Made by a program: the position numbers and the translations under genes. The notes under the pieces are model-generated. The model was not told the DNA's origin. It ran no database searches and saw only the letters and a program-made list of their open reading frames with translations. From Sneathiella chinensis (GTDB taxonomy: Bacteria; Pseudomonadota; Alphaproteobacteria; Sneathiellales; Sneathiellaceae): a stretch of DNA of 64,000 nt. Where the stretch lies: the NCBI RefSeq assembly GCF_012720115.1, contig NZ_VNWN01000002.1:1178001-1242000 (forward strand), read 5' to 3'. Of the stretch, positions 54,080 to 62,292 are shown one piece after another. Every line of letters begins with the position of its first letter. Within the stretch, counting starts at the first letter, position 1.

Positions 54080-55165
54080 TCAGTAGCCTGTCATTTCCAG
54101 ATAGCCAACCCCACCAGCGGCCCCGTCAATGCGCACGGGGCCTTCCCAATATCCGAAACTGTTCTCCATCCAGCTTTGCGGGTTCAGGGCCGTGACCGTC
54201 AGGGACAGGCCCTCACCGGGGACGGAGACACGCCATTTTGTCGGGATCTCCCGCCCCGCGACGGTGCTTTTTTCAAGGGGCGTGAAGGACAGGGCTTCCG
54301 GGGCAAGCGGGGCGGCGCTTCCCTCCGTGCTGATCAGGGTGCCGGAAGAATAGGTTTTTCCGTCCGTATGGCGAAGTTGAAACGCCATCAGTTTCCGCCC
54401 ATCCTCCAGATGCAGGGAAAACCAGTCCCACCCGGACTGGTTCTCGGCAAGGGGCTGGGAGCTCCATTCCCGGTCCAGCCATGCCTTGCCCCGAACCGTG
54501 TGTCTTTCGCCGTCAAGGATGATCAGTCCGCTGACCTCATAAAAGGGCTGGCTGTAATAATAGGAAGCCTGACCTTCGTCGGACTTGATGCTGTATCCGC
54601 TGCGCCCGTGACGGATGAGAGGGCCTTTTGCGGTGAGGGTGACATCATATTGATACGTGTCGGACGTGGCCTGTAGCCGGATTTTGTGCAAGAAATCCTT
54701 GGGCGGCACGGACAGCCCGGTCATTTGCCATTGGTCGATCCACGCGGCAAAGGGCGAAAGCGAAACACCAGCTTGCCCCACACCGCCGCGGGCGTACCGC
54801 TCATCGGAATAATGGGTGCTTTTCGTGGTCACGGCACTGTGTCCCAGCCAGAATTGCCGGTTTCCCCATCCCTCTAACGGTTCGGATTGCGGTGTCAGGG
54901 CATTGCGAAACAGGGTCCATTGCAGGCCCATGGGCACACCGTTCTGGTCTTCAAGATTTGCGGTGACATACCACCATTCAATGCGAAAACCGGGATGGGC
55001 GCTGTGATCTTGGGGAAAGGTCAGGGGCTTGTCCGGCAGAACGGTTTCATATCCCGCATCGGGTGTGGTGCCGAGGCCCCCATAGCCTTGCGCGGGCAGG
55101 GACGCCGGTACAAGGGCGACAAGGGTGACAAGGGCCAACAGGACAAGAAGGGGTCTAGCGTTCAT
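54080..55165 (-). CDS. attH: AttH/CrtC-like lipocalin-domain exported protein
   Basis: Encodes 361 residues with a signal peptide (PLLVLLALVTLVALVPA, cleavage near LPAQG). The family motifs are HPGFRIEWWYVTANLEDQ near residue 57, GLQWTLFRNAL near residue 80, FWLGHSAVTT near residue 105, GKAWLDREWSS near residue 228 and GWDWFSLHLEDGRKLMAFQL near residue 247: the AttH / carotenoid 1,2-hydratase fold. The Asp and Trp of LDREWSS are the likely active-site region. It partners the AttEFG-type ABC system upstream and overlaps its permease gene by 11 nt. The ATG at 55165 was used; a TTG at 55171 is possible. Confidence 0.9.
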   Translation of the reverse strand: MNARPLLVLLALVTLVALVPASLPAQGYGGLGTTPDAGYETVLPDKPLTFPQDHSAHPGFRIEWWYVTANLEDQNGVPMGLQWTLFRNALTPQSEPLEGWGNRQFWLGHSAVTTKSTHYSDERYARGGVGQAGVSLSPFAAWIDQWQMTGLSVPPKDFLHKIRLQATSDTYQYDVTLTAKGPLIRHGRSGYSIKSDEGQASYYYSQPFYEVSGLIILDGERHTVRGKAWLDREWSSQPLAENQSGWDWFSLHLEDGRKLMAFQLRHTDGKTYSSGTLISTEGSAAPLAPEALSFTPLEKSTVAGREIPTKWRVSVPGEGLSLTVTALNPQSWMENSFGYWEGPVRIDGAAGGVGYLEMTGY

Positions 55166-57629
55166 CGGCAAAAACCTTCAGCAGTTTTTCAGGTCGGATG
55201 CGATACAGCCTGAGGGCAGGATAGAGGCTGGCGATTAAGGCGGTTAAAAGGGCCAACAGAAATAGGGTCAGCCATTGACCGGGAAACCAGTGCAAGGGAA
55301 GACGCCAACCAAAGGCCTCCACATTGACGATGGCAACCAGACACCACGCCAGCAGCAGACCGAACGGAGCGGCAAAAAGCGCGGTGAAGGCGGCAAGGGA
55401 CAAAGACTTTGCCAGTTCCAGAAAGGCAAGATGTTTTCGCGTTACCCCCATGGCCCAAAGCGGGGCAAGAAAGGGCAACCGTGCCGCACTTAATGACAGA
55501 AGACCTGTCAGCAACGCCGTCCCGGCGACCATCAGGGTCAGGCTGTTCAGGGCGACGGTCACGGCAAAGGTCTTGTCAAAAATGCGCAAGGAATAAGCCT
55601 TGAGGGCGGCCTGATCGGTTATCTGGTCCGGGGTCAGGGCGTATCGGTCGGTGATGTCGGATATCAGCCGGGTATAGCCCTGCCTGTCCGGTTTCGGGTC
55701 CAGATACAGGCCAAACCGGTCCGCCGGAGCATCGGGCCAGAGCGCATCAAAACGATCAATGGCCATCATGATCATGCCCTTCGGATTGCCATAGTCGGGA
55801 AAGATCCCGCTGATTGTGACGGTGCGGGAGCTTGCACCGGGAAGACCGGGAAGCGGGTCGTTCAGGGACAGGTTCATCCGGCGGGCCAGTTGCTCGCTGA
55901 CCAGAACGCCGGTGCCTGCGGCCACCTGTTTCCAATGGTCGGGGGTGGCTTGCAGGAAGGCCCAGTGATCATGGTAGGCCTTGTGATCCTGAAACCCATA
56001 GATTTCCACCGGCCATCCGGCCATAACCTGATCCACCTTTCGAATGGGCAGCAGGGCATTCCCCGCAGAGGTCTGACCAAGGTTCCGTGACAGTTCATTG
56101 GCTTGGTCAGGGTTCAGGCCGTTGATGTACAGATCGGAAACCAGCCTGCTTTCCAGCCAGTCGGTAAAGGTCAGCCGGAAACTTTCAACCATGGTGCCGA
56201 CACCGATATTGACCGAAAGCGCCAGCATCAGGGCCATCAAGGCCATGGACAGGCCCGAAATCTGTTGCCGGCTGTCCGCCCAGAACCATTCCGGCAGGGG
56301 ATGCCGGGCGAGTTTCCCGGCAATGCCCACAAGGATCGACAGAACAAAGGGCAGCAACAGGGCCGCCCCCAGCAGGAGCGCCCCGATCATCACAAAGCCG
56401 CTGACAAGACCGTTAAACAGAAGCGGGACAAGGGCGGCAATTCCGAACAGGAAAACAGACGCCATCGCCTGTCCCCGCAGCCAGTATTTCTGTTGCCGGT
56501 ACCATGTCATGGGGGCGGCAGAGGCCAGAACCGGAAGCCGCCATGCCTTGTGCAGACTGTTTGCAGTTGCCAGAAGGGCACCGGCAAGGCTCATGCCAAG
56601 GCCAAGAAGCCACCAGCCGGGCCCAAGGGACAGGTCGGTGCCGATTGACGCGCCGTAAAGGCCCCGAAGGCTGGCGGCAACATCCGGTAGCAGGGCGGCG
56701 GCGATCAGGTAGCCCATGACCATTCCGATGGCCCCGCCCAAAAGCGCCATGCCCATCAGTTCGGCAATCAGAACCAGTGTCAGTTTTCGGGCCGAAATGC
56801 CGCAGGCGCGCAAGGTTCGGATCAGGGGGCGCCTTTGTTCGAAGGCAAGGCCCGTGGCCGAATGCACCATGAAAAGCCCGACAATGAATGACAGCATCCC
56901 GAAAGCCGTCAGGTTCAGGTGAAAACTGTCTGTCAGGCCATCCATGCTGATCGTTTCCTCGGGCTGGACAATCTTCAAGCCTGCCTCCCTCAGCATGGTC
57001 GGTGAAACATGGGCCAGTGCGGTGGGGTTGGTGGCAACAAGTTTCGAAACAAAGCCCATCCTTTCCAGCACGGCTTGTGCAGGAAACATATCCATGACCA
57101 GAACATCATCCGGCATGGATGGCTGTATTGTCAGGGGGGGAATTCCGTGTTCTGCCAGCATTCGCATGGGGGCAGGCCCGCTGGTCAGAAGGGTGCTCGT
57201 TGCGGGGCTGAGCAAGGTTCGCCCCGGATCAAGGAAGCGGATCAGGTCTTCCGTGGTCTCGCCTACGGTCAGTCCACCCTGATCGCGGGGATAGCTGACA
57301 GGATCAATCCCGATGATGCGAAGGGTTCTGCCTGCAACCTCAATTTTTCCTTCCAGAACGGGGGACACGGAAACACCTGCCCGCCGGAATTCACCAAAGC
57401 GGCTATCGGGAAAATCCGTACCCTTGATGGCCGCAAGGAACGGCAGGGCATCGCCGCCCATCAGGGCCGCGGCCTTGTCATAGCTTTGCCGGGCCTGACT
57501 GTTAATGGCCTGGACCCCGCTCCAGAGGGCGGTGGCGGTAATCAATCCTGCGAACAGGGTCAGGAACTGAAGGGGCCTCCGCCGCCAATAGCCCAGCAGC
57601 GCACGGAGGCACCAGAAGGCGTCCGTCAT
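55155..57629 (-). CDS. FtsX-like ABC permease, fused AttF-AttG type
   Basis: Encodes 824 residues, about twice a single FtsX-domain permease. It starts with one helix (about 17-38) followed by a periplasmic domain; a block of helices between about 235 and 450 contains QRRPLIRTLRACGISARKLT; a second periplasmic domain is followed by helices at about 690-810 with MGVTRKHLAFLELAKSLSLA. This duplicated layout corresponds to AttF and AttG joined, or to the long permeases of LolCDE/MacB-like exporters acting on membrane lipids or lipoproteins. Its start overlaps the ATPase stop by 4 nt (ATGA). Confidence 0.88.
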   Translation of the reverse strand: MTDAFWCLRALLGYWRRRPLQFLTLFAGLITATALWSGVQAINSQARQSYDKAAALMGGDALPFLAAIKGTDFPDSRFGEFRRAGVSVSPVLEGKIEVAGRTLRIIGIDPVSYPRDQGGLTVGETTEDLIRFLDPGRTLLSPATSTLLTSGPAPMRMLAEHGIPPLTIQPSMPDDVLVMDMFPAQAVLERMGFVSKLVATNPTALAHVSPTMLREAGLKIVQPEETISMDGLTDSFHLNLTAFGMLSFIVGLFMVHSATGLAFEQRRPLIRTLRACGISARKLTLVLIAELMGMALLGGAIGMVMGYLIAAALLPDVAASLRGLYGASIGTDLSLGPGWWLLGLGMSLAGALLATANSLHKAWRLPVLASAAPMTWYRQQKYWLRGQAMASVFLFGIAALVPLLFNGLVSGFVMIGALLLGAALLLPFVLSILVGIAGKLARHPLPEWFWADSRQQISGLSMALMALMLALSVNIGVGTMVESFRLTFTDWLESRLVSDLYINGLNPDQANELSRNLGQTSAGNALLPIRKVDQVMAGWPVEIYGFQDHKAYHDHWAFLQATPDHWKQVAAGTGVLVSEQLARRMNLSLNDPLPGLPGASSRTVTISGIFPDYGNPKGMIMMAIDRFDALWPDAPADRFGLYLDPKPDRQGYTRLISDITDRYALTPDQITDQAALKAYSLRIFDKTFAVTVALNSLTLMVAGTALLTGLLSLSAARLPFLAPLWAMGVTRKHLAFLELAKSLSLAAFTALFAAPFGLLLAWCLVAIVNVEAFGWRLPLHWFPGQWLTLFLLALLTALIASLYPALRLYRIRPEKLLKVFADER

Positions 57630-58279
57630 GTGACGCGCCCCCGGTGCAGGGTGACCTGATGGTTCAGGTTGCGGGCCAGGTTGCTGCTGTGAGTGACCAT
57701 CAGCAGGCCGCAGCCGGTTTTCGCAATCAGGTGCAAGGTCAACTCCAGAACCTCATGGGCGGTGGTCTCGTCCAGATTGCCGGTTGGCTCATCCGCAAGC
57801 ACAAGGTCCGGTCTGGCCCCCAATGTCCGGCCAATGGCAACCCGTTGCTGCTGTCCGCCGGAAAGCTGTTCGGGGTAGCGGTCCAGAAGGCCGGACAGGC
57901 CAAGGCTCTCCGCCAGAAAGGCCGACCAGTCGGGGTCATGGCGATTTGACAGGCGGGCCTGAAACGCCAGATTGTCGGCAACGGTCATGCTGGGGATCAG
58001 GTTGAATTGCTGAAAGACGAGCCCCAGCTTTTTCTTGCGAAGGCGGGAGCGTTCCCCATCATTGAACCGGCTAATGTCCTGATCGTCGATGAGGATGGTG
58101 CCGCTATCGGCGCTATCAAGGCCGGCAATCAGATGAAGAAGGGTGCTTTTCCCGCTTCCCGACTCTCCCATCAGGGCCATGCTGTCCCCGCGCTGCAAAT
58201 CCAGATTGACGCCATCCAGAACGATCAGGGGGCCTTGCGGTGTGGGAAAAGTTTTTCGAAGATTGCGAACGGACAGCAT
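57626..58279 (-). CDS. ABC ATPase of the LolD/MacB type (AttE-like)
   Basis: Encodes 217 residues with one ATPase domain: Walker A GESGSGKST near residue 38, Q-loop VFQQFNLIPSMTVADNL near residue 88, signature LSGGQQQRVAIGRTLGA near residue 140, Walker B LVLADEPTGNLD near residue 161 and H-loop VTHSSNLA. This is the phospholipid/lipoprotein-exporter class. It sits 3 nt after the antiporter gene and overlaps the permease gene by 4 nt, so it belongs to the same transcript. Confidence 0.93.
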   Translation of the reverse strand: MLSVRNLRKTFPTPQGPLIVLDGVNLDLQRGDSMALMGESGSGKSTLLHLIAGLDSADSGTILIDDQDISRFNDGERSRLRKKKLGLVFQQFNLIPSMTVADNLAFQARLSNRHDPDWSAFLAESLGLSGLLDRYPEQLSGGQQQRVAIGRTLGARPDLVLADEPTGNLDETTAHEVLELTLHLIAKTGCGLLMVTHSSNLARNLNHQVTLHRGRVT

Positions 58280-58282
58280 GGT

Positions 58283-59476
58283 TTAACCGGTTCCTTCGTC
58301 CGTTTGCGAGGTCTCCGACGGGCTGTCTGCCTTTGACAGGGCAATTTGCGTGACCAGCGGGCCAAAAACCTCAAACAGGATCGTTGTCATGATGGTGACG
58401 GACAGAATGACCTCCCGATAGTCGGGCAGCTTGTTCCCGGCGACCAGTGCCATGCCAACGGCAACCCCGGCCTGCGGCAGCATGGCGGTCCCCATCCAGT
58501 GGCCATAGCTGGCGGGGGCCTTGCCAATCCGGGCGCCAATCCATCCGCCGATAATCCGCGACAAGGTGCGGAGGAAAACAAAGGCCATGATCAGGAAGCC
58601 AAACTCCTGCCAATGCTCCATTTCCAAAGACGCCCCCGCCAACACGAAAAAGAGCATCATGAACGGGCCTTCGATATTCTCGATTTCATGGAAGGGATAG
58701 GTGTGATGGCTGGCGAAGTTGACAACAATCATGCCTGCGACCACACCGGCCAACAGAAAGGAAACACCCAGCCAGACAGACAGGCCCGCACACAGGAAAA
58801 CCACGGCAAGGGCTTCAATCTGCATGGGTTCCCCTTCCTTCAGGCGACCCGTCAGATAGGCAGCGGGAAGCCCGATGCCAGCCCCAACCGCGATGGCCCC
58901 GCCCAGTTCCCACAGCCCTTCCAGAAGAACATCCGTTGTCCCGTTGCCGCCAAGGGCATTGACCCCGACCAGCAGGAAGGAAAAGGCCAGCAATCCCCAC
59001 AGATCGTCAATGGCGACAATCCCCTTGAGGGTGTCGGAAAAGGACCCCTTGTAGCCATATTGCCGGATGACGTCCCGGATGGCTGCGGGGTCTGTGGCCG
59101 CTGCGATCCCGGCCAGCACAAGGGCGAGGGCCGGATCAAACCCGGCAAGGATAAACCCGGCGGAGACCAGAAGAATGGTCACAATGACCACGGAAATTGA
59201 AATGGCCATGATCTGGCGGCCATGGGCCAGCATTTGATCCTTGGTGAGGGAACCGCCCAGCAGAAACGCCACCATGGTGAGGGCGGTTGTGGCCAGCAGG
59301 TCGTACCATCCATCGACTTGCCCGGGAATGATGTTGAAAATGCCGGGGCCTGCCAATACGCCAAACAGGATCAGCAGGGTCACCCGGGGCAGGTGAAAAC
59401 GCCGGGCAATGGCGTCCGTGGCAAGGCCAATTGCGAACAGTCCGCCAAGGGTGAGAAGGGTAATATGTACGTCCAT
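58283..59476 (-). CDS. Cation/proton antiporter (CPA2/KefB-like membrane domain)
   Basis: Encodes 397 residues with about twelve helices. CPA motifs: RRFHLPRVTLLILFGVLAGP near residue 25, LGGSLTKDQMLAHGRQIMA near residue 73, and AGIAAATDPAAIRDVI near residue 120 with the ion-binding Thr-Asp; FFVLAGASLEMEHW near residue 275 follows. It lacks the C-terminal TrkA-N regulatory domain of full KefB/KefC. It is the first protein gene of the leftward operon leading to the AttE-like ABC system; its upstream RNA leader contains a terminator-like hairpin. Confidence 0.9.
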   Translation of the reverse strand: MDVHITLLTLGGLFAIGLATDAIARRFHLPRVTLLILFGVLAGPGIFNIIPGQVDGWYDLLATTALTMVAFLLGGSLTKDQMLAHGRQIMAISISVVIVTILLVSAGFILAGFDPALALVLAGIAAATDPAAIRDVIRQYGYKGSFSDTLKGIVAIDDLWGLLAFSFLLVGVNALGGNGTTDVLLEGLWELGGAIAVGAGIGLPAAYLTGRLKEGEPMQIEALAVVFLCAGLSVWLGVSFLLAGVVAGMIVVNFASHHTYPFHEIENIEGPFMMLFFVLAGASLEMEHWQEFGFLIMAFVFLRTLSRIIGGWIGARIGKAPASYGHWMGTAMLPQAGVAVGMALVAGNKLPDYREVILSVTIMTTILFEVFGPLVTQIALSKADSPSETSQTDEGTG

Positions 59477-59547: not shown

Positions 59548-59572
59548 AGGGTTGGGGGATAAATGGACGGGT

Positions 59573-59696
59573 AAAAAGAAGCCCTTGCGGTCCAGGTAAC
59601 GCAAGGGCTTCAGAGTAAGCGCCTGACGGTGCTCACTCGGGGGAGACGGGGGTGCCCGGTGAAAGAGGGAAGGAAACCGGACAAACCCCTTGTCTG
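59573..59696 (-). ncRNA. Candidate structured small RNA or attenuator leader
   Basis: Predicted RNA of about 124 nt starting just after an ECF11-like promoter. Elements in order on the minus strand: (1) GACAA-GGGGT-TTGTC stem (59694-59680); (2) a stem ACCGG/CCGGT-like arm (59680-59656) with a 15-nt C/U-only loop, TTCCTTCCCTCTTTC, able to pair with Shine-Dalgarno sequences; (3) GAGTGAGC/GCTTACTC, 8 bp with one G-U pair and a 10-nt loop (59638-59613); (4) a perfect 12-bp terminator stem GAAGCCCTTGCG/CGCAAGGGCTTC (59611-59578) followed by TTTTT (59577-59573). No ORF with an ATG is inside. It does not match 6S, SRP, RNase P or tmRNA signatures known to me. As it points to the antiporter, a leader role is the alternative. 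Confidence 0.6.
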
Positions 59697-59702
59697 ATAG
59701 TC

Positions 59703-59732
59703 ATATTACGATCAGGTTATGTGTCTGGATCA
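59703..59732 (-). promoter_or_regulatory. ECF11-like (RpoE/ChrR) promoter, leftward
   Basis: TGATCC (59732-59727), an 18-nt spacer, then TAATAT (59708-59703), with CGTAA at 59710-59706. This fits the TGATC-N18-TAA pattern described for Rhodobacter RpoE-dependent promoters. Transcription would begin near 59696 and produce the structured RNA and possibly the antiporter-ABC-lipocalin operon. Confidence 0.65.
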
Positions 59733-59750: not shown

Positions 59751-59779
59751 TGATCCGATCGCAACTGTCCGGCGTAAAA
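59751..59779 (+). promoter_or_regulatory. ECF11-like (RpoE/ChrR) promoter, rightward
   Basis: TGATCC (59751-59756), an 18-nt spacer, then TAAAA (59775-59779), with CGTAA at 59773-59777. Same architecture and spacing as the leftward promoter 19 bp away. Start near 59785 would leave a leader of about 20 nt containing the GAGG ribosome site of the SDR gene. Confidence 0.7.
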
Positions 59780-59803
59780 GCCATCAAATCAGGTGAGGAA
59801 ACC

Positions 59804-60559
59804 GTGTTGAGCGAGAAACCATCAGTCTGGATCATTGGGGGAAGCTCCGGTATCGGGCGCCATCTGGCGCTGGAACTGGCGGGGCGTGATCAGTCCGTTG
59901 TGGTGAGTGCCCGGCGGCAATCGGCGCTTGAGGAACTGGCGTCCCAAAAGCCGGATCATCTGCGGGCTGTTCCGTTGGACATCGCCGATGAGGAGCAGGT
60001 CCGATCTGTCGCGGACGCCCTGTTCAAGGAGGGGCGCGGCCCGGATTGTGTTATCCTCAATGCCGGGATTTATGAGCCCATGTCCGTGCAAAATTACAGT
60101 GCCGCGCGGGCGAGGAAGGTCATGGATATCAATTATCTTGGCCTCGTGCGGGTGATCGAGGCGGTGCTGCCCCATTTTCAGGCAGAGGGCCGGGGGCATC
60201 TTGTTATCGTGGCATCAGTTGCCGGGTATCAGGGATTGCCGCTGTCCCTTGCCTATGGGCCGAGCAAGGCAGCCTTGATCAATCATTGCGAGGCCTTGCG
60301 GGTGGAACTGGCGGGAACCGATATCCGGGTGCAGGTTGTCAATCCGGGATTTGTGCGGACGCCGCTTACATCAGGGAACCGCTTTCCCATGCCCTTCCTG
60401 ATGGAACCGGAAGAGGCCGCAAGACGGATTGTGCGCGGTATGGCATCCAACCGGTTCGAGATTGCCTTTCCAACACGGTTTGTCTTTCTGCTGAAACTGA
60501 TGAAATTATTGCCATATGCCCTTTCCCTTTATCTTGTAAGGCGAGCGACGAGAAAATGA
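59804..60559 (+). CDS. SDR-family NAD(P)-dependent oxidoreductase
   Basis: Encodes 251 residues from GTG 59804; GAGG lies 5-6 nt upstream, and TTG 59807 is an alternative. The nucleotide loop is VWIIGGSSGIGRHLALELAG; CVILNAGIYEPMS near residue 84 is the NAG motif; the catalytic Ser-Tyr-Lys triad is in VASVAGYQGLPLSLAYGPSK near residue 140. A hydrophobic C-terminal helix (FVFLLKLMKLLPYALSLYLV) suggests membrane association, so the substrate may be lipid-linked. It follows an ECF11-like promoter, and its stop overlaps the next ATG (ATGA). Confidence 0.92.
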   Translation: MLSEKPSVWIIGGSSGIGRHLALELAGRDQSVVVSARRQSALEELASQKPDHLRAVPLDIADEEQVRSVADALFKEGRGPDCVILNAGIYEPMSVQNYSAARARKVMDINYLGLVRVIEAVLPHFQAEGRGHLVIVASVAGYQGLPLSLAYGPSKAALINHCEALRVELAGTDIRVQVVNPGFVRTPLTSGNRFPMPFLMEPEEAARRIVRGMASNRFEIAFPTRFVFLLKLMKLLPYALSLYLVRRATRK

Positions 60560-60999
60560 CCTCTCCGGATATGATTGAAAAGGCCTGTGCAGCCTATGCC
60601 CGGTATTTTGAAACCCTGTCCCCGGAAACGGTTGACGATCTGGATGGGCTGGCCGGTGACGCCCTCTATTTTGAAGACCCTTTCAATCAGGTTCGGGGGC
60701 GGGACAAGGTCAAACAGCTTTTCCGCCAGATGTTCGACCATGTGTCGGACCCGGCTTTTCATGTTTATCCGCCCTATTGGGAAAGCGGCAAAGGGCAGGT
60801 CCTGTTGAAATGGCGCTTTACCGGGCAGAACCGCCATCTTGGCCCCATTGATTTTGTGGGCCTGTCCGAGGTGACGTTCGACGCGGAAGGAAAGATTGTA
60901 TCCCATGTGGATTACTGGGATGCCTCAACCCACTTTTACGCCAAAATCCCCCTGATTGGGGGAATGATCCGGTTCGTGAAACGCCGCATGGCCCTGTAA
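60556..60999 (+). CDS. NTF2/SnoaL-like family protein
   Basis: Encodes 147 residues of the small cone-shaped NTF2 fold: YARYFETLSPETVDDLDGLA, the YFEDPFNQVRGRDKVKQLFR core near residue 37, LLKWRFTGQNRHLGPIDFVG near residue 85, and HVDYWDASTHFYAKIPLIGG near residue 115. This subgroup (often called nuclear transport factor 2 family) is regularly found beside SDR, DUF1365, CFA-like and amine-oxidase genes in ChrR-type stress clusters. Its reaction is not known. It is coupled to the SDR gene by a 4-nt overlap. Confidence 0.85.
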   Translation: MTSPDMIEKACAAYARYFETLSPETVDDLDGLAGDALYFEDPFNQVRGRDKVKQLFRQMFDHVSDPAFHVYPPYWESGKGQVLLKWRFTGQNRHLGPIDFVGLSEVTFDAEGKIVSHVDYWDASTHFYAKIPLIGGMIRFVKRRMAL

Positions 61000-61010
61000 A
61001 GTAAAGGGGG

Positions 61011-61039
61011 CTGACCGGGGCGTCAGTCGTCCCGGTCAG
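61011..61039. terminator. Inverted repeat at the convergent end of NTF2 and CFA genes
   Basis: CTGACCGGG (61011-61019) and CCCGGTCAG (61031-61039) form a perfect 9-bp stem with an 11-nt loop. The right arm covers the stop codon of the CFA-like gene. No T tract on either side. Confidence 0.5.
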
Positions 61040-62292
61040 GACAGTTCGAATATCACCACGTCGATGGATCGGTGGCGAAAGCCCGCCTCGCAATATTGCA
61101 GATAGAATTCCCACATTCTCTTGAACCGATCGTCAAACCCCAAGCTTCGGATTGTCTCCCATGAATTTTGGAAACGCTGGTTCCACTGGCGCAGGGTTTC
61201 TGCGTAATCCTGACCAAACTCGGCGGCGGTCCGGGCGGTTAGCCCGTATTGCCCGGCCTTCTCAATAAAGGCGGATTTGGTCGGCAGGTGACCGCCGGGG
61301 AAGATATATTTCTGGATGAAATCGGGAACCTTCCGGTACCGCTCATACCGGCGCTCATCGATTGTAATGACCTGAACGGCGGCCTTCCCGCCGGGTTTCA
61401 GGCAGTGGCGGACGGTCTGGAACCATGTGTCCCAGTTTTCGGCCCCCACGGCCTCGAACATCTCGATGGAAACGATGGCGTCATAGCTGCCGGTCACATC
61501 GCGGTAATCTTTCAGCAGGATGTTTGCCTGTTCAGGCCGTTCCGCGAGGGAGGGGCGGGCAAGGGCATAATCCCGTTGTTCGCGGGACAGGGTGATCCCG
61601 TCGATATGGACGTTGTGAGCCTGCAGGGCATAGTCAGCGAACCCGCCCCAGCCACATCCGATTTCAAGAACCTTTGACGGACCGTCGATACCGGCTATCT
61701 CTGCGATTTTTCTGTATTTATTCTGTTGGGCCTCAAGCAGGGGGGTGTCCAGACTTGGGAATAGGGCCGATGAATAGGTCATGCTGTCATCAAGCCACAA
61801 TGTGTAGAAGTCATTCCCAAGGTCATAGTGATAGGCAATGTTCCGGCGGCTGCCGGTCCGGGAGTTGCGGTGCCGGAAAAAATGCAGGCCGTTGAGAAGA
61901 CGTGTAAAGACCCGTCCCGCGCCCGAATGGGGCGGCGTGCCAATATTCACAAGGGCAAAGGCGATCAACTGACTGATGTCGGGACTGGACCACAGGCCAT
62001 CCATATAGGTTTCGCCAAGACCGATATCGCCGTGCTTCAGGATATGCTTGAGGGCGGACAGAGTGTGGAACCGGATCACCGCCTTGGGGGTGGTGGCGGA
62101 AATTGTCTTCCCTTCAAACTGATGACAGGTCCCATCGGGCAGAAAGACGGAAAGCTGACCGGTCTGGGTGCGGGCTTTCAAAACGGCGAACAGGCTGCGC
62201 AGCCACGGATCTCTGAAACCGGCCTTTGGGCCGGATAGGGGGCGTGCCGACGGGTGTTTGTTCAGCCCGGATTGGGACGTGGTATCCGACAT
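61036..62292 (-). CDS. Cyclopropane-fatty-acid synthase-family SAM methyltransferase
   Basis: Encodes 418 residues. The N-terminal half (about 1-150) is the CFA lipid-binding region (LKHGDIGLGETYMDGLWSS near residue 93). SAM motif I is VLEIGCGWGGFADYALQ near residue 200, with QRDYALARPSLAERPEQ and YDAIVSIEMFEAVGAENWDT near residue 256 following. It transfers a methyl or methylene to unsaturated acyl chains of phospholipids; the clustered DUF1365 and amine-oxidase genes suggest a methylated or furan-type fatty acid product rather than simple cyclopropane. It directly abuts the DUF1365 gene. Confidence 0.92.
   Translation of the reverse strand: MSDTTSQSGLNKHPSARPLSGPKAGFRDPWLRSLFAVLKARTQTGQLSVFLPDGTCHQFEGKTISATTPKAVIRFHTLSALKHILKHGDIGLGETYMDGLWSSPDISQLIAFALVNIGTPPHSGAGRVFTRLLNGLHFFRHRNSRTGSRRNIAYHYDLGNDFYTLWLDDSMTYSSALFPSLDTPLLEAQQNKYRKIAEIAGIDGPSKVLEIGCGWGGFADYALQAHNVHIDGITLSREQRDYALARPSLAERPEQANILLKDYRDVTGSYDAIVSIEMFEAVGAENWDTWFQTVRHCLKPGGKAAVQVITIDERRYERYRKVPDFIQKYIFPGGHLPTKSAFIEKAGQYGLTARTAAEFGQDYAETLRQWNQRFQNSWETIRSLGFDDRFKRMWEFYLQYCEAGFRHRSIDVVIFELS

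Follow-up and report, generated by a model that had tools for sequence, protein, structure and literature searches.

CcsR1-4, the cuckoo RNAs, are stress-linked sRNAs of the alphaproteobacteria with pyrimidine-rich loops that carry a CCUCCUCCC-type motif. They are processed from the transcript of a DUF1127 gene (ccaF1), which has an RpoHI/RpoHII promoter. In Rhodobacter sphaeroides, Pos19 (RSs0019) is an orphan sRNA gene with an intrinsic terminator and an RpoE/ChrR promoter, published as TGATCC(N15)GCGTA; the gene lies between cxp and fadB, and its 219-nt RNA contains a translated small ORF and has no poly-U tail (PMC5036791). UpsM, a 206-nt sRNA of the same species, is made from the 5' leader of dcw by an intrinsic terminator that lies ahead of the same-strand operon, and has been described as a feature of the Rhodobacteraceae (PMC5089854). 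In Xanthomonas, sX13 (RF02232) is a compact stem-loop RNA whose C-rich loops act on G-rich sites in mRNAs (PMC3771888).

Here we analyse a minus-strand element that, judging from its sequence, is most likely a promoter-to-terminator unit of the singlet-oxygen regulon and an orphan sRNA gene. It lies in a window of 64,000 nucleotides, by which we mean the whole stretch of DNA that was analysed. The minus-strand features that an initial annotation had described, namely an ECF-type promoter, several stem-loops, a 15-nt loop consisting solely of C and U, and a 12-bp terminator stem with five T, are all present. The features of the locus are as follows.

59804-60559, plus strand: SDR oxidoreductase gene, the divergent partner (PF00106, E 3e-41; GTG start chosen from the sequence)
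59751-59780, plus strand: divergent ECF11-type promoter of the SDR-SnoaL operon (TGATCC-N18-TAAAAG)
59703-59732, minus strand: ECF11 (RpoE/ChrR)-type promoter (-35 TGATCC, N18 spacer with CG at its end, -10 TAATAT)
59573-59696, minus strand: predicted sRNA of about 124 nt, from a likely start near 59696 to the T-run of the terminator
59644-59695, minus strand: hairpin 1, with the 15-nt C/U-only loop UUCCUUCCCUCUUUC, the proposed seed
59613-59638, minus strand: hairpin 2, GAGUGAGC..GCUUACUC
59573-59611, minus strand: intrinsic terminator (12-bp stem without mismatches, loop of 10 nt, five T)
59561-59569, minus strand: CGUCCAUUU, fully complementary to AAAUGGACG at the antiporter start (59478-59470)
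58283-59476, minus strand: antiporter of the Na+/H+ exchanger family (PF00999, E 4e-32)

The promoter of the candidate reads TGATCC-N16-CGTA at 59732-59707 (minus strand) and thus has both the motif and the spacing of an ECF11 promoter; the base before CGTA is T, as against G in the published Pos19/RpoE sequence. The pattern TGATCY-N16-CGTA occurs at only 19 sites in the whole 3.55-Mb genome, this promoter among them. Four of these sites form two divergent promoter pairs in the gene cluster of the candidate. In the pair described here, at 59751-59780 (plus strand) and 59732-59703 (minus strand), 18 bp separate the two -35 elements; the intergenic region between the FAD oxidoreductase gene and rpoE (L026:6464-6532) likewise holds two divergent copies, and the same motif therefore stands at the rpoE, FAD oxidoreductase and SDR promoters. 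The remaining 15 sites lie mostly within long ORFs, and the clear intergenic one is upstream of a fasciclin gene. The window ends inside this gene cluster, and the next genes, just past its edge on the same contig and about 5 kb from the candidate, encode a sigma factor of the ECF type together with an anti-sigma factor of the ChrR family (L026:6566-7857). The latter scores 198 bits against TIGR02451 (cut-off 124.5), as expected for the cognate sigma/anti-sigma pair of an ECF11 regulon. The proposal of an ECF-type promoter on the minus strand is thus borne out, by the ECF11 motif as well as by a matching sigma/ChrR pair. Assignment of the promoter to the ECF11 class is very likely correct on the sequence, and is firmer than it had been in the initial annotation because rpoE and chrR lie just outside the window and carry the same promoter motif.

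The start of the predicted RNA was placed near 59696 from its position, 6-8 nt past the -10 element. The 124-nt RNA has a minimum free energy of -60.1 kcal/mol, compared with -36.5 ± 3.5 kcal/mol for dinucleotide shuffles (z -6.7), and none of 200 shuffles folded equally well. When 125-nt segments of both strands were folded across the whole window, the element fell in the lowest 0.4% of 5110 folds. The loop of hairpin 1 spans 59675-59661 (± 1 nt) and coincides with a rare pyrimidine run: only 4 pyrimidine or purine runs of at least 16 nt occur in the 64 kb. Perfect stems of 10 bp or more that run into T4 occur twice in the window, and the terminator (GAAGCCCTTGCG-N10-CGCAAGGGCTTC-TTTTT) has the longer of the two. 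A generic terminator scan listed nothing here, since it accepts loops of up to 8 nt and this terminator has a 10-nt loop.

It had also been stated that the terminator needs another explanation, as no protein-coding gene lies upstream on its strand. This is only partly so, since the Cfa operon ends at 61036, 1.46 kb upstream. Read-through from that operon is nevertheless an unlikely reason for the terminator, because a GC-rich hairpin stands at the operon end. In this region (60960-61080), the SDR-SnoaL and FAD oxidoreductase-DUF1365-Cfa operons converge with 36 bp between their stop codons and have a common GC-rich hairpin with a weak T-tract. Given this short distance and the weak T-tract of the common hairpin, antisense overlap between the two operons is possible.

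We found no usable small ORF in the element and no ORF of the Pos19 type with a Shine-Dalgarno sequence. Its only reading frames start with TTG or GTG, encode 24 and 8 aa, and have no properly spaced ribosome site; the frame that opens with TTG at position 94 of 125 extends beyond the terminator. The element is thus a complete promoter-to-terminator unit lacking a usable ORF, which argues for an orphan sRNA, and the genome encodes hfq. With moderate confidence, we read 59696-59573 (minus strand) as an orphan sRNA gene of the ECF11 (RpoE/ChrR) singlet-oxygen regulon, whose pyrimidine loop would act on ribosome sites. Once ChrR lets go of RpoE, transcription would begin at about 59696, and RNA polymerase would produce three successive hairpins and halt at the strong terminator, releasing a transcript of about 124 nt. 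Through its 15-nt pyrimidine loop, hairpin 1 could then bind purine-rich stretches close to ribosome sites and so reduce the translation of certain mRNAs. We infer that the predicted sRNA would be expressed, induced by stress, stable and active in trans.

The position of the element ahead of another operon suggests a second reading. The antiporter ATG is on the same strand, 96 nt downstream of the terminator, and the antiporter gene is followed by genes for a LolD-like ABC ATPase, an 824-aa FtsX-like permease and a CrtC-type lipocalin protein in what is apparently a single operon (54080-59476, minus strand). The element could then be the prematurely terminated leader of this antiporter-ABC operon, with no specific switch: most transcripts from the ECF11 promoter would be short, partial read-through would feed the antiporter, and trans action of the short RNA would be possible but not required. 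The geometry allows such read-through, UpsM offers a precedent for an sRNA made from a 5' leader by an intrinsic terminator (PMC5089854), and we found no convincing sigma-70 promoter between the terminator and the antiporter ATG. However, so strong a terminator should allow little read-through, and in the RNA that did pass it a 9-bp helix would cover the start codon of the antiporter. This helix is a perfect inverted repeat of CGUCCAUUU and AAAUGGACG that is predicted to pair in the read-through RNA; matches of 9 bp or more arose in 1.3% of shuffles, and the pairing was noticed post hoc. As modelled, only transcripts that start upstream of 59569 would have their antiporter start codon masked by CGUCCAUUU. 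Such masking, if real, would leave the long RNA with little translation and so speaks against antiporter expression from the ECF11 promoter. Further evidence against a terminated leader comes from 80 antiporter homologues, none of which has a strict-motif ECF11 site within 450 nt upstream; the best match of our model of the element at these loci had an E value of 0.64. By analogy with UpsM, we regard a terminated leader as the main rival, though a rather unlikely one.

A more specific form of control had been suggested in the initial annotation, which considered the element as an attenuator or antiterminator leader of the antiporter operon. In a true attenuator or riboswitch, a ligand, an ion or a protein would toggle between terminator and antiterminator to control the operon. 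The location ahead of an ion antiporter would suit such a device, as would a CAAGGG near the 5' end that is able to pair with the 5' arm of the terminator. However, prefix folding, constrained folding and folding of shuffled duplexes revealed no mutually exclusive antiterminator better than chance. First, hairpins 1 and 2 form before the terminator and persist once it has formed: hairpin 1 is intact in all transcript prefixes of at least 54 nt, hairpin 2 is intact after forming, and the hairpins are sequential and do not compete. Second, forcing the 3' arm of the terminator open gave no notable alternative helix, and no fold rivals the terminator. Third, the best upstream partner of the 5' arm reaches -12.5 kcal/mol, compared with a shuffle mean of -11.1 kcal/mol, and 22% of shuffles equal it. 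The element also lacks a leader peptide preceded by a usable ribosome site and matches no Rfam riboswitch, and its leader is not shared by the 7 antiporter homologues of the class or the 80 named loci that were inspected. Since no competing fold, no usable ORF and no leader in the homologues were found, we reject a dedicated terminator/antiterminator switch and keep partial read-through; control by a toggled attenuator is the most improbable of the readings considered.

Returning to the orphan sRNA gene, we looked for relatives with a single-sequence covariance model of the element (self-score 158 bits). Searches of 24 further genomes from the genus and of 289 genomes of the class gave no convincing match, and thus no sign of purifying selection. 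BLAST likewise gave nothing convincing, and plasmids held no match. No match in the window exceeded the gathering cut-off of Rfam 15, and relaxing the search to E values up to 10 added weak matches far below it. These results agree with the suggestion that the sRNA is undescribed, as it has 0 Rfam matches and 0 convincing homologues in the genomes searched. As far as the searched collections show, the element appears lineage-specific, and it is probably a separate, species-specific small RNA gene.

Three weak matches from these searches were considered as homologues and rejected. One (L058) is a plain gene-end terminator, and another (L163) has no T-run. The third (L162), in another family of the class, is a C-rich-loop hairpin with a terminator and has no ECF11 promoter; its E value of 1.7e-4 per genome corresponds to about 0.05 over 289 genomes, which is not clearly above chance. 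At this locus (L162:1501-1650, minus strand), two consecutive hairpins with CUUCCCCCCUU loops precede a strong terminator. It weakly resembles the sX13 and anti-hemB Rfam models, below their cut-offs, and is possibly an undescribed C-rich-loop sRNA.

Comparison of the surrounding genes raises the question of whether the element is an evolutionary remnant, in which the ECF11 promoter of a former gene came to lie beside an unrelated terminator after a rearrangement that introduced the antiporter operon, and now yields a functionless transcript. A homologue of the SDR gene is kept in 14 genomes of the genus, where the upstream DNA differs from that of the candidate's locus. In two sister genomes (L013 and L015), the promoter divergent from the SDR gene is of the ECF11 type and drives a fasciclin gene; the SDR-side ECF11 site is weaker in L013 than in L015. 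In the genome of the window, the fasciclin gene is elsewhere (L065) and has its own ECF11 site, and none of the 24 further congeneric genomes has the antiporter. The fasciclin arrangements and the missing antiporter are compatible with a remnant. Yet the space between promoter and terminator holds two more hairpins and a pyrimidine-only loop, in a fold far beyond chance, and the fasciclin-gene terminators that were inspected differ in sequence from that of the element. We therefore consider a remnant improbable.

If the element is an orphan sRNA gene that acts through its loop, its targets may carry loop complements near their start codons. Complements of at least 7 nt were found near the starts of 63 of 423 sampled genes, compared with 55 ± 16 for shuffled loops, and a search of gene starts for 9-mer loop complements gave 5 sites, against 8 in the control. 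This lack of enrichment would also fit a functionless remnant. At the start of rpoE, two stretches of 7 nt or more, GAGGGAA and AGAGGGAA, are complementary to the loop. This number is reached by 5 of the 423 genes, and by duplex energy rpoE is 17th among 417. In Rhodobacter, the sRNA StsR lowers rpoE mRNA by pairing near its start (PMC8307010). About eight genes of the regulon were looked at, which makes this evidence weak, a lead and not a result; rpoE mRNA is thus a weak candidate target of the predicted sRNA. It is also conceivable, if highly improbable, that the element has a dual role, in which an sRNA made by RpoE feeds back on rpoE through AGAGGGAA and GAGGGAA while CGUCCAUUU silences the antiporter in read-through RNAs. 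In that case, RpoE activity would not raise, or would even lower, antiporter synthesis from a shorter, translatable transcript.

How does the candidate compare with the RNAs already described? A link to Pos19 and the CcsR group had been drawn initially, and the part that stands is the promoter class, which is common to the candidate and Pos19. Like Pos19, the candidate would be an orphan sRNA gene with an RpoE/ChrR promoter and an intrinsic terminator, but its predicted RNA is about 124 nt long and has five T, and its neighbours are different; membership of Pos19 was rejected because the candidate lacks a usable ORF and differs in size and place. The CcsR RNAs are stress-linked, as the candidate would be. 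However, the candidate has an ECF11 promoter in place of an RpoH promoter, its neighbours are the SDR and antiporter genes with no DUF1127 gene alongside, and no CCUCC was found in the element, on which grounds we rejected membership of this group as well. Like UpsM, it would be an sRNA with an intrinsic terminator ahead of a same-strand operon, from which it differs in its ECF11 promoter and in being found in one genome. The compact stem-loop RNA sX13 is of similar size and provides a model for trans action, but the loop of the candidate is U/C-mixed with no CCCC within, promoter class and taxon differ, and the element gave no match to RF02232 even at E 10. Thus, although stress-sigma-driven sRNAs are already known elsewhere, the candidate fits no described family. 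If our reading is correct, fasciclin would have been replaced by an sRNA downstream of a promoter in a similar position, which would offer a tangible example of how sRNA genes originate. Among the sRNAs compared here, only Pos19 has been described as directly driven by a ChrR-controlled sigma factor; the candidate would then be a second, unrelated RpoE/ChrR sRNA, from another alphaproteobacterium, and would indicate that the regulon gains lineage-specific RNA regulators.
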